Shown: positions 3,604 to 42,636 of the stretch, piece after piece
How the letters are laid out: the number at the start of each line of letters is the position of its first letter
Numbering within the stretch: position 1 is the first letter of the stretch
NCBI GenBank assembly: GCA_945288535.1
Contig: CALYQQ010000002.1
Span: forward strand, 1 to 64,000
Reading direction: 5' to 3'
Length of the DNA: 64,000 bases
Source: an uncultured Enterobacterales bacterium
Lineage (GTDB): Bacteria > Pseudomonadota > Gammaproteobacteria > Enterobacterales > CALYQQ01
Translations under genes and position numbers: made by a program
The notes under the pieces: generated by a model
The model's input: the letters and a program-made list of their open reading frames with translations, nothing else
Told to the model about the DNA's origin: nothing
The model's database searches: none

Positions 3604-3818
3604 ACTTATTCTCAGGGCGGGGCGAAATTCCCCACCGGCGGTAACAATAATAGCTTAAGTTAATTTATTATTTATTTTAATCATTATTTTACGTATGCAA
3701 CGTAAAAATATTCTTGGTTATTATTGAAGCCCGCGAGCGCTTATTATTTATAATAAGGTCAGCAGATCTGGTGAAATACCAGAGCCGACGGTTATAGTCC
3801 GGATAGGAGAGAGTAACA
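3604..3818 (+). promoter_or_regulatory. FMN riboswitch (RFN element) of ribB
   Basis: The conserved RFN blocks are all present in order: CTCAGGGCGGGGCGAAATTC and CCCACCGGCGGTAA near 3611-3644, AGCCCGCGAGCGC near 3728-3740, CAGCAGATCTGGTGAAATACC near 3761-3781 and GCCGACGGTTATAGTCC near 3784-3800, closing with GGAGAGAGTAAC. FMN binding would repress ribB. The variable arm (3645-3726) is much longer than in E. coli and contains a nested hairpin. The leader continues about 105 bases to the ribB start and includes CCCTGATTCTGGTAA. Confidence 0.97.
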
Positions 3819-11981: not shown

Positions 11982-12141
11982 TTTAGCAAAAAGAAAGTTC
12001 AGCTGGTAACTTTTTTGTTTTTACCAAAGCACAAATAAGTGGAGGTGTTTGTTTTTCAATCAAAGAATGGTGTTTTATAAAGGAAATAAAACCAAGTACA
12101 GGATAATGCACTCAGTTTTATGAATCAACAAGAATAATAAA

Positions 12142-13023
12142 TTACTTACCGTATTTGCCTAATACTTTTTCATAGGATTGCTGGAATTGGCGTGCGTTCC
12201 AGTCGCCATCAAATAGAGTATAGACGATGTACTTACTTTCAAGTGCTTTCGCATCGTTATCGCGTGTTGATGGTTTTAATGCCATTGGATTCCATGCTTG
12301 AGTTGCTTGCGTATCCGTTATATCTTTAAAGGCAATCTGTGGGATAGGATTAAATTCGTTATCTACATAGCGAATTCCTTTTAGCTCTGATTTTGGATAA
12401 GGCGGATAATTAATGCTTAAACCACTTTTTGCGGGTAAGACAGACTGACCAGGTTTCCATTGTGAATTTAAGTGATCAATAACTTCAACAACATAATCGG
12501 CTACGATGGGAACATATTCATGTGAACTTTTAAAGCCTGTCTCAGCTTCTTCCCAACGTGCGCCAACACTTGCGGCAATTGCAGGAATACCTTCACGTAC
12601 GGCACGTGCAGCTGCACCAACTGTACCTGAATTGAATTGAGCAATACCTACGTTTGGCCCATCATTAACGCCAGAAATAACGAGATCAGGTGGATTATCT
12701 TTTAATAAACCATATAAGCCAAAAAGAAGTGCGTCCGAAGGAGTTCCAGGGAAACAGTATGTTCTTTCTGATAGTTTTTCAATTGGGAATGTTTTTCCTG
12801 GTTTAAATGTGATAGCTGTACCAATACCACTTTGGTTGACTGCAGGGGCACTTGACCAAACTTCATAACCTTTCGCTGTTAATTTATTTTTTAATGCTAT
12901 AATACCTGGTGCTTTACATCCATCATCATTGACAAGTAAGATCCGCATAGGGCGCTCTGCGGCATTTACAGCAAAACTACTCGTTAATGCTAAAGCTAAT
13001 GCACTAAATACAATTTTTTTCAT
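12142..13023 (-). CDS. Exported SurE-type 5'/3'-nucleotidase
   Basis: A 293-residue SurE-family metal-dependent nucleotidase with an N-terminal signal peptide (MKKIVFSALALALTSSFAVNA, cleavage expected near residue 21). SurE metal ligands are kept: D33 and D34 in LLVNDDG, S65 in NQSG, and N120 in SGVNDGPNVG. The classical SurE is a cytoplasmic protein of about 250 residues encoded beside pcm, so this is a periplasmic paralogue. Its ATG overlaps the treC TGA as ATGA, so it is translationally coupled and belongs to the trehalose operon. It may release phosphate or nucleosides from periplasmic nucleotides; a link to trehalose 6-phosphate is inference. Confidence 0.88.
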   Translation of the reverse strand: MKKIVFSALALALTSSFAVNAAERPMRILLVNDDGCKAPGIIALKNKLTAKGYEVWSSAPAVNQSGIGTAITFKPGKTFPIEKLSERTYCFPGTPSDALLFGLYGLLKDNPPDLVISGVNDGPNVGIAQFNSGTVGAAARAVREGIPAIAASVGARWEEAETGFKSSHEYVPIVADYVVEVIDHLNSQWKPGQSVLPAKSGLSINYPPYPKSELKGIRYVDNEFNPIPQIAFKDITDTQATQAWNPMALKPSTRDNDAKALESKYIVYTLFDGDWNARQFQQSYEKVLGKYGK

Positions 13024-14693
13024 TTTACTACTCCTATAGTTAAAACGAAGAGTGCTTCATAAGGTGATAACAGTAAATTCGGCGTTAATTCATTGCGTGG
13101 ATAATTTGCTAATAAAATTGAGGCATTGGTTAGGTCAATATCATCAGGTAATATATATGGTTGCGTCTCTGCGGAGAGATTAGCAATCACATAAAGACGG
13201 GTATCATCCCATTGACGGACATAACACCATAGCGATGAATGCTCAGCATTTAAGTCTTGATAGCGACCTAATGTAAAAATAGGTAATTGTTTGCGTAGAG
13301 CAATAAGTTTTTGGTAGCAAAAGAAAATAGAATTTTTATCTTCAATTGCTTGTTGTGCGTTGATCTCTTTATAATTAGATGCTGTTTTTATCCAAGGAGT
13401 ACCTTGAGTAAAACCGCCATTAGCAGAACTATCCCATTGCATTGGCGTTCGGCTATTATCACGCGATTTCTGTGATAAAATGGCAAGAATTTTTTGCTCA
13501 TTTATCCCTTCATCTTTAAGATGTTGCCATGCATTTAAACTCTCAATATCTCTATAATCATGTATAGTATCAAAGTTAGGGTTTGTCATACCAATTTCTT
13601 CACCTTGATAAATATAAGGAGTACCTTGTAAACCGTGTAAAACCATAGCTAACATTTTGGCTGAAGGTATTCGATATTGCTGATCATCACCAAAGCGGGA
13701 AACAATGCGTGGTTGATCATGATTACACCAAAAGAGTGCATTCCAACCTTTTTGGTACATACCTTGTTGCCACTGATTGAAAAGCGCCTTTAATTGAATA
13801 AAATTGGGTTTTGCATAGGTCCATTTTTCGCCATTTAGATAATCTACTTTTAAATGATGAAAATTAAACACCATAGATAATTCTTTACCGTCAAGTTGAC
13901 TATAGCGTTGACAATGTGCTAATGAGGTCGATGACATTTCGCCAACAGTCATTAACGTTCGTGGCGTAAAAACATCACGATTAAATTCTTGAAGATAACT
14001 ATGGATATTTGGCCCATCTGTGTAGAATTGGCGGCTATCGATATGCGGATCATCATAGAATTGTTCAGGCTTAGAAACCAAATTAATCACATCTAAACGT
14101 AAACCATCGACACCTTTATCCGCCCAAAACTCACATACTTTTTTTAATGCTTCTCTGACAGGAGGGTGTTGCCAATTGAGATCGGCTTGTTCTACTGCAA
14201 ATAAATGAAGGTAATATTGCCCACTTTCTGCATGCCATTGCCAACAACTTCCTCCAAATTTTGATTGCCATTGTGTCGGTGGATTGCCATTTTCATCAGC
14301 ATCACGCCAAATATAAAATTGGCGATATTCACTCTGTTTATTTTGAGAGGCAATAAACCAGGGATGTTCGGTAGACGTATGGTTAAAGACCATATCCATG
14401 ATAATTCGAATACCACGTTGATGGGCTTGTATAACCAATTCATCAAAATCCGCCATACTGCCATATTTTTCATCAATTGAGTAATAATCAGAGATGTCAT
14501 AACCGTTATCGATTTGTGGCGAGAGATAGATAGGTGTTAACCAGATAGCATCAATACCAAGTAATGTGAGGTAGTCAAGTCGCTTTATGATGCCACGTAG
14601 ATCCCCTGTGCCATTCCCCGTAGTATCCTGAAAACTTTTAGGGTAAATTTGATAAATAGTACCATTTTGCCACCAAGGAAAAGAATTATTCAT
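13020..14693 (-). CDS. treC: Trehalose-6-phosphate hydrolase
   Basis: TreC is a cytoplasmic GH13 enzyme that splits trehalose 6-phosphate, the product of TreB transport, into glucose and glucose 6-phosphate. The 557-residue protein shows the family regions in order: DMVFNHTS near 100, the nucleophile region GLRLDV with D201, the acid/base E252 in TVGEMS, and CNHDQPR further on. It lies 119 bases downstream of treB and overlaps the exported surE-like gene by four bases. Length is close to E. coli TreC (551). Confidence 0.96.
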   Translation of the reverse strand: MNNSFPWWQNGTIYQIYPKSFQDTTGNGTGDLRGIIKRLDYLTLLGIDAIWLTPIYLSPQIDNGYDISDYYSIDEKYGSMADFDELVIQAHQRGIRIIMDMVFNHTSTEHPWFIASQNKQSEYRQFYIWRDADENGNPPTQWQSKFGGSCWQWHAESGQYYLHLFAVEQADLNWQHPPVREALKKVCEFWADKGVDGLRLDVINLVSKPEQFYDDPHIDSRQFYTDGPNIHSYLQEFNRDVFTPRTLMTVGEMSSTSLAHCQRYSQLDGKELSMVFNFHHLKVDYLNGEKWTYAKPNFIQLKALFNQWQQGMYQKGWNALFWCNHDQPRIVSRFGDDQQYRIPSAKMLAMVLHGLQGTPYIYQGEEIGMTNPNFDTIHDYRDIESLNAWQHLKDEGINEQKILAILSQKSRDNSRTPMQWDSSANGGFTQGTPWIKTASNYKEINAQQAIEDKNSIFFCYQKLIALRKQLPIFTLGRYQDLNAEHSSLWCYVRQWDDTRLYVIANLSAETQPYILPDDIDLTNASILLANYPRNELTPNLLLSPYEALFVLTIGVVK

Positions 14694-14812
14694 TATTTTA
14701 TTTAATTACCTTAATTGATTAATGAGAATGTCTATTTTTCATTTACACTATTATGATGTTAACTACATTTATCTTTATAGCGATAACCTTCTTTAATTTA
14801 CATCTATAAATG

Positions 14813-16234
14813 CTATTTTATGGCCAAGGTGCCTTTTGCATATTTTTGTTTATAAATCATTATGGTTAATAAAATAGGTACACTAATGGCGATAATCATC
14901 GCAATTGCATAGATCCCCCAATATGCTACCTTAATCGACAATATACCTGGCAAACCACCGATACCAATACCATTGGCAAGAACACCGGCGAATCCACTCA
15001 CAAAACTAGCTAAAGCAGATCCAATCATGGCACATAACATAGGGAAACCATATCGTAAATTTATGCCATACATCGCAGGTTCGGTAACCCCAAGATAAGC
15101 TGCAATCGCAGCGGGAACGGAAACTTCACGCTCATTTATTTTTCGGCTGACCAAAATAATCCCCATAACAGCAGACGCTTGCGCTATATTGGATAGTGCG
15201 ATCAATGGCCATAGAGGCGTACCACCTATGCTATTCACCATTTGCATATCAATGGCCATTGAAGTTTGATGAACACCGGTAATAACTAAAGGTGCATATA
15301 AAAAGCCAATCAAGGCTGAGCCTATAGGAGCGAAGCTTCCCGTTAAAACAGCTTTAACAATAAAAGCTACGCCATCACCAATCATCCGGCCAAAAGGACC
15401 AATTAATGTATGGGCTAAGATCACGGCAAGCAACAGTGAGGCTAAAGGAACAATGACAAGATAAAGGTAATCGGGGATAATTTTTTTCAAGCGCGTTTCC
15501 AGCCAACCGAGTGTTAGCCCTGCTAAAATAGAAGGAATAACTTGCGCTTGATAACCAATTTTTTGAATTGTAAACCAACCAAAGTCCCATACATCAGCAA
15601 CTTTACCATCAGCAAGTGCATAAGAATTCATTAATTGAGGTGATACTAGTGTGATCCCTAGAACAATACCTAAAATCGGAGATCCTCCCATTTTTTTGAC
15701 TGCAGACCAACAAATTCCTACGGGTAAAAAATGGAAAATAGCTTCGCCAGGTAACCATAAGAAATCATTGACGGCTTTGCAAAATGGGTAGCAATTAACG
15801 AGAGTCTTACCGTCGACGATAGCTATGCCTTCCAGTACATTCCTAAATCCCAGGATCATACCACCAGCAATTAATGCGGGTAATAACGGAAAGAATATTT
15901 CAGCTAAATCCGAAATTAATCGTGATGCTAACCCCATATTTTGTTTAGCAGCACGCTTGGTTTCTTCTTTATTAGCTTCTTTTATTCCAGTATATGAAGT
16001 GAGTGCTTGATAATAATCATCAACATTGGTGCCAATAACGACCTGAAACTGTCCTGCATTGGTAAAACAGCCTTTCACAGCTGCAATAGTTTCAATTTCT
16101 TTTGGTTGTGCAATTATCGGATCGTTAAGTACAAAACGTAAGCGAGTTAAACAATGACTGACACTAACAATATTATTTTTTCCGCCAACGAGCTCAATAA
16201 GTTTTTCAATATCTTTTATATTTACTTTAGACAT
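14813..16234 (-). CDS. treB: PTS trehalose-specific EIIBC component
   Basis: TreB imports and phosphorylates trehalose. The 473-residue protein, the same length as in E. coli, has an N-terminal EIIB domain with the phosphorylated Cys28 (SHCLTRLRF) followed by a hydrophobic EIIC transporter domain of about ten membrane segments. There is no EIIA domain, so it would use the glucose-type EIIA in trans. It is the first gene of treB-treC-surE-like, behind a TreR operator and a CRP site. Confidence 0.97.
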   Translation of the reverse strand: MSKVNIKDIEKLIELVGGKNNIVSVSHCLTRLRFVLNDPIIAQPKEIETIAAVKGCFTNAGQFQVVIGTNVDDYYQALTSYTGIKEANKEETKRAAKQNMGLASRLISDLAEIFFPLLPALIAGGMILGFRNVLEGIAIVDGKTLVNCYPFCKAVNDFLWLPGEAIFHFLPVGICWSAVKKMGGSPILGIVLGITLVSPQLMNSYALADGKVADVWDFGWFTIQKIGYQAQVIPSILAGLTLGWLETRLKKIIPDYLYLVIVPLASLLLAVILAHTLIGPFGRMIGDGVAFIVKAVLTGSFAPIGSALIGFLYAPLVITGVHQTSMAIDMQMVNSIGGTPLWPLIALSNIAQASAVMGIILVSRKINEREVSVPAAIAAYLGVTEPAMYGINLRYGFPMLCAMIGSALASFVSGFAGVLANGIGIGGLPGILSIKVAYWGIYAIAMIIAISVPILLTIMIYKQKYAKGTLAIK

Positions 16235-16311
16235 AATTTTTTATCTTATTTTTCTTATTTGCTGAAAGGGAGCTTATTTTATAAGCATAAAATCATATTA
16301 GCTTGATCAAA

Positions 16312-16327
16312 ATGGGAACGTTCCCAT
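16312..16327 (-). promoter_or_regulatory. TreR operator
   Basis: The perfect 16-bp palindrome ATGGGAACGTTCCCAT lies about 80 bp upstream of the treB start. Its core GGGAACGTTCCC matches the known TreR-type operator. TreR bound here would repress treBC until trehalose 6-phosphate accumulates. Confidence 0.85.
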
Positions 16328-16329
16328 AA

Positions 16330-16345
16330 TGTGAATGTAATCACA
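16330..16345 (-). promoter_or_regulatory. CRP binding site upstream of treB
   Basis: TGTGA-N6-TCACA is perfect here (TGTGAATGTAATCACA) and starts three bases past the TreR palindrome, on the promoter-distal side of treB. This fits cAMP-CRP activation of the trehalose operon. Confidence 0.85.
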
Positions 16346-16474: not shown

Positions 16475-17449
16475 TTAATAAGGGAGATCAATAAGTTGGC
16501 CTTCTACAATTTTACGGACACCTGAGGATTTACCGGTAAGTAATTGTAATAGAAGAGCTACGGCTTGATGACCAGCTTGTTTATAACCGGGATCAATAGA
16601 TAAAATATTCGGAAAAAGAAAATGGAGTAGGCTATTATTGCCGATACTACAAACTTGAATATCTTTATAATCTTGTTGTTGTAAATATTTACACGCACCT
16701 AATGCAATTGTATCAGTCGCACAAATAAGTGCCGTCATGTGGCAAGTAAGGACTTTTGGGGTAAGCTGATAACCTGTTTGTAAACTTAATTCACCAAGCT
16801 GGCTATAGTGTGGTAAACCGTGTTCATGGCAAATAGCGGAATAGGCTTGATAACGTAACTGACCTGTAGAGATATCCTGTGGGTTAACACCAATATAGCC
16901 TATATGATAATGGCCATGATTAAGTAACCAATCCATTAATTTTGCTATTAAATTATATTCATTATACGTTACTGATGAAAAGCCCTGATGTTCTCGTGCT
17001 ATTAAAATAAGTTTTTCTTTCCATACGTCTAATAGCTGATAATTTAACTCACTAAAAGCAAAGAAAATAAGTCCGTCAATATTGCGGCGTTGTAACATGG
17101 TCAAATTTTCAGCGACAATACTATTATTAAATTGACTCTCGATCACAATGGGGGCATAACCATGTTGTAATAATGAGGATAACATGGCTTGTACCACTTG
17201 ATGTTCTGAATAAGAATCAAGGCGAGATACCATGATACAAACAACTTTATCGCTTATGCCGCGCAATGCTTGTGCTGATTTTGATGGAATAAAGTGATAC
17301 TGTTGAATAACAGCCTCGACTTTTTTGCGGGATTGTTCACTAACGTTGCCAGCGCAATTAATCACTCTTGAAACCGTAGATTTACTGACGCCACTGAGTT
17401 GAGCTATATCTTTAATAGTTAGACGCGTTTTTGTTATTTTAGTGGACAT
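16475..17449 (-). CDS. treR: Trehalose operon repressor, LacI family
   Basis: TreR is a LacI-type repressor that binds trehalose 6-phosphate as inducer. The N-terminal helix-turn-helix reads TIKDIAQLSGVSKSTVSRVI, followed by the hinge (KSAQALRG) and a periplasmic-binding-protein-like domain with the family MVSRLDS, RRNIDGLIFF and CATDTIALGA blocks. The exact start among two nearby ATGs (17458 or 17449) is unsure; both are a few residues longer than E. coli TreR. It lies upstream of treB on the same strand with its own 240-bp spacer. Confidence 0.93.
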   Translation of the reverse strand: MSTKITKTRLTIKDIAQLSGVSKSTVSRVINCAGNVSEQSRKKVEAVIQQYHFIPSKSAQALRGISDKVVCIMVSRLDSYSEHQVVQAMLSSLLQHGYAPIVIESQFNNSIVAENLTMLQRRNIDGLIFFAFSELNYQLLDVWKEKLILIAREHQGFSSVTYNEYNLIAKLMDWLLNHGHYHIGYIGVNPQDISTGQLRYQAYSAICHEHGLPHYSQLGELSLQTGYQLTPKVLTCHMTALICATDTIALGACKYLQQQDYKDIQVCSIGNNSLLHFLFPNILSIDPGYKQAGHQAVALLLQLLTGKSSGVRKIVEGQLIDLPY

Positions 17450-17458
17450 AACTGCCAA

Positions 17459-41227: not shown

Positions 41228-41302
41228 TGGCGTCCCCGACAGGAATCGAACCTGTAACTAGCCCTTAGGAGGGGCTTGTTATATCCGTTTAACTACGGGA
41301 AC
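41228..41302 (-). tRNA. argW: tRNA-Arg(CCU)
   Basis: A 75-base tRNA with CCA. On the minus strand it reads GTTCCCGTAGTTAAACGG at the 5' end, has the anticodon loop CTCCTAA (anticodon CCT), and the T arm CAGGTTCGATTCCTG. It is close to E. coli argW, which is a prophage integration target, and an integrase remnant lies beside it. Confidence 0.95.
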
Positions 41303-41475
41303 ATTGTTTGTCTTATTTAAATCTTTTTCCTATGTTATCTCTTAACATTGTTTAAAATCAACTTTTTTATCTTTTTTATTTCATTTTCTCCCCATAATTT
41401 GGGTTTTTTTGCTTATTTCGTTTACTTGTAATTGAGTACATAATATAAAAAAGCATGTGTACAGAATATAATACT

Positions 41476-42636
41476 ATGGCATTAAGCGATACAAAGTGAC
41501 GAACTATACACAACAAACCTTACAATGGAAAACCAGAACTAACAGATGGTGACGGCTTGAGTGTAAGAATATCACCTCATGGCGTTACTGCCTTTCAATA
41601 CAGATATCGATGGCAAAGAAAACCTGTCAGATTAACTATCGGTAAATATCCAGCAATGTCGTTAAAAGATGCAAGAATTATTGTTGGGCAAATGCGTGAA
41701 CTATATACAAAAGGGCTTAATCCTAAAATATACTTTTCTGAGGAAGTGAGTGAGGCAACATTACAGTATTGGTTAGATAAGTATGTTTCAACATTGAGAT
41801 CTAATACACAGATGCTTTATAAATCAGTTTTGTACAACTCAATGCATACAGAATTTAAGTCCGTGCCAATATCTAATATTTCGATTTCCTCATGGGTGAG
41901 TTTTTTTGATAAACAGGAAAAAGCGAACCCTAAAAAAGCTAGAGTTCTTCTGGTGCAACTTAAGTCCATGCTTAATTGGTGTATGAGCCGTCAATTCATT
42001 GCATCCTGTGAAGCTATGAAGCTCTCATCTAATAGCGTGGACAAGGGTGCAAATGCTGGAAGCAGAGTATTAACATATTATGAACTGGCAAAGATTTGGA
42101 CAGCTCTTGAAAAGAGTAAAATTGTATCCTCTAATAAAATTTTACATCAGCTAATTTTATTATATGGGTGCCGTTTATCTTAAATGCGCTTAGCCCTTGC
42201 TGATGAATTTAATTTAAAGGATATGATCTGTACGACGCCAGCGAGTCATTCGAAAATGGGGAAAATTATTTGAAGACCCATTTTTAAGCAAGTAGAACCG
42301 TATATTGAAAAATTGTTAGGTTTTGGTAATGATGTTCTATTTTTTGGACAAAACTTTGATAAACCAATTGATTTGTCTTCATACAATCTTTATATGAGGA
42401 ACTTACGCAAAAAAATTGACATTCCTGAATGGCGTACCGACGATTTTAGGCGTTCTCTGTCTACCAATTTATCCAACGAAGGAGTCATGCCCCATATTAC
42501 AGAAAAAATGTTGGGACATGAGCTTCGTGGGGTAATGGCGATATATAACAAACATGATTATTTGACGGAACAAATGCAATCATATGAGCTATATGCAGAT
42601 AAAATATTGTGGCATGTTAAACGGCTCTCCGATTAA
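41476..42636 (+). pseudogene. P4-type tyrosine integrase killed by nonsense mutations
   Basis: A single unbroken frame from ATG at 41476, interrupted by TGA at 41497, TAA at 42181 and TGA at 42274. The N-terminal domain reads PYNGKPELTDGDGLSVRISP, GVTAFQYRYRWQRKPVRLTI, GKYPAMSLKDAR (DUF4102 type). The catalytic domain shows YGCRLS (first Arg), DDFRRSLSTNLSNEGVMPHI, LGHELRGVMAIYNKHDY (second Arg and Tyr). In the HxxR box the usual His seems to be Asp. It is read away from tRNA-Arg, on the 5' side of that tRNA. Confidence 0.92.

Follow-up and report, generated by a model that had tools for sequence, protein, structure and literature searches.

A predicted exported SurE-family phosphatase, very probably encoded by the last gene of a trehalose operon in an uncultured Enterobacterales bacterium

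In this work we have investigated a surE gene which lies directly behind treC in the genome of an uncultured Enterobacterales bacterium, within a stretch of 64,000 nucleotides that we refer to as the window. The gene is very probably the last one of the trehalose operon, and its product, a member of the SurE family, carries a predicted signal peptide. Judging from the sequence of the protein and the neighbours of its relatives, we propose that it is a periplasmic phosphatase which would free glycoside phosphates for import by the phosphotransferase system (PTS), here recruited by treBC. With activity, substrate and location all deduced in this way, we give this reading a probability slightly below one half (about 0.48).

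Anatomy of the trehalose operon

The genes treR, treB, treC and surE follow one another in this order on the minus strand, between positions 12142 and 17458 of the window (Table 1). TreR, TreB and TreC all pass the NCBIfam equivalog cut-offs and, together with an operator-type and a CRP-type site, they identify a trehalose operon; the treR reading frame as given starts with TTG, and an ATG is found three codons further in. Both sites, the CRP consensus TGTGAATGTAATCACA and the palindrome GGGAACGTTCCC, are situated between treR and treB, upstream of treB, which agrees with the TreR operator and CRP site to which a sequence-only reading of this DNA had assigned treB-treC and surE. The palindrome is probably the TreR operator, to judge from its position and from what is generally known of LacI-family operators. 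The treRBC operon of enterobacteria has the same three genes and a CRP site, and what differs here is the third gene behind treR, surE, which overlaps treC.

The overlap, also described in that reading, consists of an ATGA in which the surE start codon and the treC stop codon are merged, and the ribosome-binding site of surE, seven bases from its ATG, is located inside the end of treC. A terminator scan found no terminator-like site at the treC–surE junction; it reported two weak sites inside treC and seven sites overall, against 4.2 expected. The terminator-like hairpin which follows surE is AU-rich, with few GC pairs and a weak U tract, and it is probably the end of the operon. Because of the overlap, the ribosome-binding site, the terminator-free junction and the hairpin after surE, we conclude that the operon very probably ends with surE, co-transcribed with the genes before it, so that the earlier view of an exported-type SurE as the third gene of treB-treC is well supported by the anatomy. 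Elsewhere in the window, an ordinary FMN riboswitch precedes a ribB-like ORF (3604–3818), and a tRNA gene lies beside a short ORF (41557–42183) whose product resembles the N-terminal portion of a phage-type integrase; the two together (41231–42183) may mark a decayed site of integration.

Table 1. Features of the trehalose operon and of the SurE protein, in window coordinates.
Feature	Position	Strand	Evidence
treR, LacI-family trehalose repressor	16475..17458	-	TIGR02405, 390 bits vs cut-off 357
CRP-type site TGTGAATGTAATCACA	16330..16345	.	perfect consensus; sole one in window, 0.08 expected by chance
palindrome GGGAACGTTCCC, probable TreR operator	16314..16325	.	single exact match in window, 0.00 expected by chance
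treB, trehalose PTS IIBC	14813..16234	-	TIGR01992, 663 bits vs cut-off 592
treC, alpha,alpha-phosphotrehalase	13020..14693	-	TIGR02403, 840 bits vs cut-off 799
AGGAG, surE ribosome-binding site, inside treC end	13031..13035	-	sequence
ATGA, surE start/treC stop overlap	13020..13023	-	sequence
surE, predicted exported SurE-family phosphatase, 293 aa	12142..13023	-	PF01975, TIGR00087, fold match
predicted signal peptide, residues 1-21	12961..13023	-	hydropathy and motif script
metal ligands D33 D34	12922..12927	-	conserved at the thresholds used (40 exported, 13 cytoplasmic proteins)
C36, first of conserved cysteine pair	12916..12918	-	residue comparison
metal ligand S65	12829..12831	-	conserved in exported and cytoplasmic relatives
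C90, second of conserved cysteine pair	12754..12756	-	residue comparison
metal ligand N120	12664..12666	-	conserved in exported and cytoplasmic relatives
15-bp hairpin 3' of surE, probable operon end	12086..12121	-	-15.3 kcal/mol, z = -3.87; terminator scan

The SurE protein and its exported relatives

The protein belongs to the SurE family both by its domain (PF01975, 5.6e-43, 147 bits against a cut-off of 22) and by TIGR00087 (151.6 bits, above the cut-off of 135.1), and its predicted model, a weak one with a mean pLDDT of 51, matches the fold of SurE crystal structures at 3.7e-13. The metal ligands of the family, D-D/S/N, are all present, as the sequence-only reading had stated. That reading had also noted a clear signal peptide, and we see the same: in the start of the protein, MKKIVFSALALALTSSFAVNAAERP, a charged n-region is followed by a hydrophobic core and by the cleavage motif VNA↓AE, and the N-terminus MKKIVFSALALALTSSFAVNA↓AERPMR holds the sole strongly hydrophobic stretch of the protein. 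The AQA↓AE of homologous proteins served to place the cleavage point, and the export call is one of hydropathy and motif, not of a trained signal-peptide predictor. On these grounds the protein is predicted to be secreted by a Sec-type signal peptide. The cytoplasmic SurE (UmpG), a 5'/3'-nucleotidase and exopolyphosphatase, shares with it PF01975, TIGR00087, the D-D...S...N site and the predicted fold, whereas the protein of the window adds the signal peptide, a cysteine pair, altered active-site loops and a sugar-operon setting in place of the fixed gene neighbourhood of the cytoplasmic type. It thus falls outside the classical cytoplasmic type, ten controls of which, all from one family of the order (f18, see below), have neither a signal peptide nor a trehalose operon around them.

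How widespread is the exported type? In a profile search of two families of the order it was found in 37 of the 392 genomes of the large family f18 and in 4 of the 44 genomes of family f27. A survey of 395 genomes of the order, which sampled f18 more thinly than the profile search, gave it beyond the window genome only in three f27 genomes, and 369 genomes across the class yielded, besides the genome itself, one weak match (G858, 35%) with no linked genes nearby. The one relative from a named bacterium is the SurE of Enterobacter sp. Bisph1, which is 56% identical to that of the window. In a quick tree, whose rooting is uncertain, the window SurE joins the exported clade on a long branch, as sister to the rest.

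Close relatives of the window SurE have the same N-terminal layout, many of them with AQA↓AE. The residues which are near-invariant in the clade and specific to it (C36, C90-F91-P92, D121, A128-Q129-x-N131 and R140) lie within the conserved motifs of the active site or next to them, and the loops are unlike those of cytoplasmic SurE. The window protein carries the signature of the clade, that is, the signal peptide, the cysteine pair in NDDGC...CFPGTP and the clade loop residues, and departs from it at a few columns, such as A38 and V125. The C36/C90 pair is kept in every intact first-copy exported SurE. Three second-copy paralogues (L083:6149-7042, L085:6287-7195 and L104:9334-10227) retain NDDG and a signal-like N-terminus and have lost both cysteines along with the NQSG motif; the joint loss fits a C36–C90 disulphide, and disulphides are a feature of secreted proteins. 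The exported SurE proteins form a distinct clade of a known family, and what is new in this clade is its predicted secretion and its tie to PTS glycoside operons. A mobile-element origin was considered and rejected: no relative was found by DNA in E. coli genomes or in viral contigs, and plasmids gave none with an identity of 60% or above. Other families of the order hold a separate group of exported-type SurE proteins (L122-L126), of about 332–364 aa and about 32–38% identical, which have signal-like N-termini and another arrangement of the cysteines (in several of them APC and YCVG or FCVG); as judged from the blast labels, their loci contain none of the linked genes.

Gene neighbourhoods of the exported phosphatases

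We have compared 41 non-redundant exported surE loci, the window included, with up to 20 kb around each, and counted neighbours within five genes. The commonest neighbour was an OprD-type porin (31 of the 41 loci), followed by PTS II (27 loci), a GH1 6-phospho-beta-glucosidase (26), the BglG antiterminator (21) and a signal-peptide-bearing histidine phosphatase (15). At least one of PTS and porin was present in 35 loci and neither in the other six. In the representatives scanned, PTS and GH1 were a beta-glucoside IIABC and a 6-phospho-beta-glucosidase. Two layouts dominate. In one, porin, surE, bglG, PTS and GH1 run in one direction, and in many loci porin and surE are 9–25 bases apart; in the other, the porin and the exported histidine phosphatase are divergent from surE-PTS-GH1. 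None of the ten cytoplasmic surE loci of f18 had a PTS, porin, GH1, BglG or histidine phosphatase neighbour (for PTS, 27/41 against 0/10, Fisher p about 2e-4, with kinship ignored); their flanking ORFs, of about 350 and 208 aa, agree in size with truD and pcm. The bgl/asc beta-glucoside PTS operons of enterobacteria likewise consist of BglG, PTS IIABC or IIBC, 6-phospho-beta-glucosidase and a porin, and to these the loci of the surE type add an exported SurE, an exported histidine phosphatase or both. In the open-licence papers searched we found neither a description of operons with these additions nor anything that connects SurE to the PTS operons for trehalose or beta-glucosides; a paper on Proteus mirabilis sugar transporters mentions treB and not SurE. 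At L095, L098 and L100, the few genes after the exported surE include one for a DsbD-like protein and two conserved ones of smaller size.

The linkage to porin, GH1 and BglG is thus usual in the clade and not universal, and the window locus, which has treB and treC instead of these three genes, is the only one of the 41 in which treC adjoins surE. The genome to which it belongs (2.52 Mb in 29 contigs) is the only member of its family in the set compared. Neither the exported histidine phosphatase nor the surE-linked porin has a close homologue in it. The single OprD-family protein of this genome adjoins an 889-aa ORF which we take to be a chitobiase, and is therefore probably a chitoporin; with the linked porin missing, other porins would have to serve. 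A second SurE of this genome, of the cytoplasmic type, is encoded on another contig (L110:14832-15590, G000:C23); by eye it is nearer to the divergent SurE of f27 than to the f18 type, and it has TetR- and AraC-like regulators alongside and no pcm-sized neighbour.

The exported histidine phosphatase, counted at 400 bits or more, is present in 18 of the 392 f18 genomes, and 16 of these 18 also have the exported SurE, compared with 37 of 392 overall. At L149-L156 the exported-type histidine phosphatase and an OprD-type porin form a unit of two genes, with neither SurE nor PTS present. The conjugative plasmid pACYC.E9L of Enterobacter mori (L158) carries a PTS IIBC, ascB, a LamB-type porin and an exported phosphatase of the same histidine phosphatase family, all in the same direction. 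Glycoside PTS genes therefore recur together with phosphatases of two unrelated families and with porins of at least two. Similar histidine phosphatases in two Gram-positive plasmid records were set aside, as they lie outside PTS operons.

A possible role in the use of phosphorylated glycosides

Could a secreted phosphatase be of use to a PTS operon? The operons for trehalose and for beta-glucosides are alike in that the glycoside enters unphosphorylated and gains its phosphate on entry. A glycoside which is already phosphorylated should not be imported as such by a PTS, and a periplasmic phosphatase would therefore make it a substrate. That two families of phosphatases, and two or more of porins, are found repeatedly with glycoside PTS genes is our main argument for a phosphorylated glycoside as the substrate. 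According to this proposal, phosphorylated glycosides would cross the outer membrane by a porin, the exported phosphatase would strip off the phosphate in the periplasm, the PTS would import and re-phosphorylate the free glycoside, and the phospho-glycosidase would split the product. The SurE protein would then be a secreted, metal-dependent phosphatase working in the periplasm, and across its clade the phosphatase partner of sugar-specific PTS operons. In the bacterium studied here, surE would be expressed as the third gene of treB-treC-surE under the control of TreR and CRP, and its substrate may be trehalose-6-phosphate or some other phosphate ester of trehalose set free by lysed cells, which would yield trehalose for TreB and TreC. 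Periplasmic glucose-1-phosphatase, Agp, of E. coli frees sugar for PTS import and so works like the proposed SurE, although Agp has a histidine acid phosphatase fold and no homology to SurE, and its gene lies outside PTS operons. Modular glucosides of nematodes have been detected mainly in phosphorylated form (PMC7641594). We found no evidence for trehalose phosphates as a common extracellular nutrient. This counts against our proposal, as do the nucleotides and polyphosphate on which known SurE enzymes act, the six loci with neither PTS nor porin nearby, and the lack of close homologues of the linked porin and histidine phosphatase in the genome studied here.

SurE is regarded as an intracellular nucleotidase, and the known enzymes act on (d)NMPs, 3'-AMP and polyphosphate (PMC8475336). 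With this family activity and an intact metal site, the protein of the window could also be a periplasmic 5'/3'-nucleotidase which takes phosphate or nucleosides from extracellular nucleotides and is expressed when trehalose signals a nutrient-rich host. The sequence-only reading leaned this way, and while its exported SurE-type enzyme with treBC stands by the anatomy, its supply of nucleosides or phosphate from host nucleotides during the uptake of insect trehalose is not what we favour. In the closest relatives the gene belongs to beta-glucoside PTS operons, accompanied by porins and in many cases by another exported phosphatase, which argues for a phosphate ester connected with the glycoside being imported; none of these neighbours is nucleotide-related, the active-site loops are unlike those of cytoplasmic SurE, and the sites upstream are of the TreR and CRP types. 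We therefore regard the nucleotidase as a live explanation, weaker than that of glycoside phosphates and on balance unlikely.

Two further explanations are less supported. Perhaps surE simply landed behind treC and is expressed there with no functional link to trehalose. The linkage of treC and surE in one genome only, the sole representative of its family, speaks for such an accident and also against the role in glycoside phosphate use. On the other hand, the exact ATGA overlap, the gene's own ribosome-binding site, the maintained reading frame and the ties of the same clade to PTS glycoside operons elsewhere make an accident improbable. We consider it a little more improbable still that the enzyme is a guard which acts on sugar phosphates lost from the cell, or from neighbouring cells, when the PTS overflows, and removes the phosphate to let the carbon be recovered. 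A phospho-glycoside intermediate is indeed common to the trehalose and beta-glucoside operons, and the operon anatomy suggests co-expression with a PTS, but the frequent pairing with an outer-membrane porin suggests an incoming substrate, and no efflux gene was seen to recur in the exported surE clusters.

If phosphorylated glycosides are indeed the substrate, the observations may extend beyond the window. It is conceivable, and we advance it tentatively as somewhat less probable than the role proposed for the SurE protein itself, that Enterobacterales carry an undescribed phosphoglycoside module consisting of an OprD- or LamB-type porin, one or more exported phosphatases (of the SurE clade, the histidine phosphatase family or both), a glycoside PTS and a phospho-glycosidase, and that the trehalose operon of the bacterium studied here captured its SurE from such a module. 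Dozens of genomes are concerned, in which the family models name the protein only as 5'/3'-nucleotidase SurE. If the proposal is true, it would explain how PTS bacteria feed on phosphorylated glycosides, and the SurE family would gain a second role beyond that of an intracellular nucleotidase.
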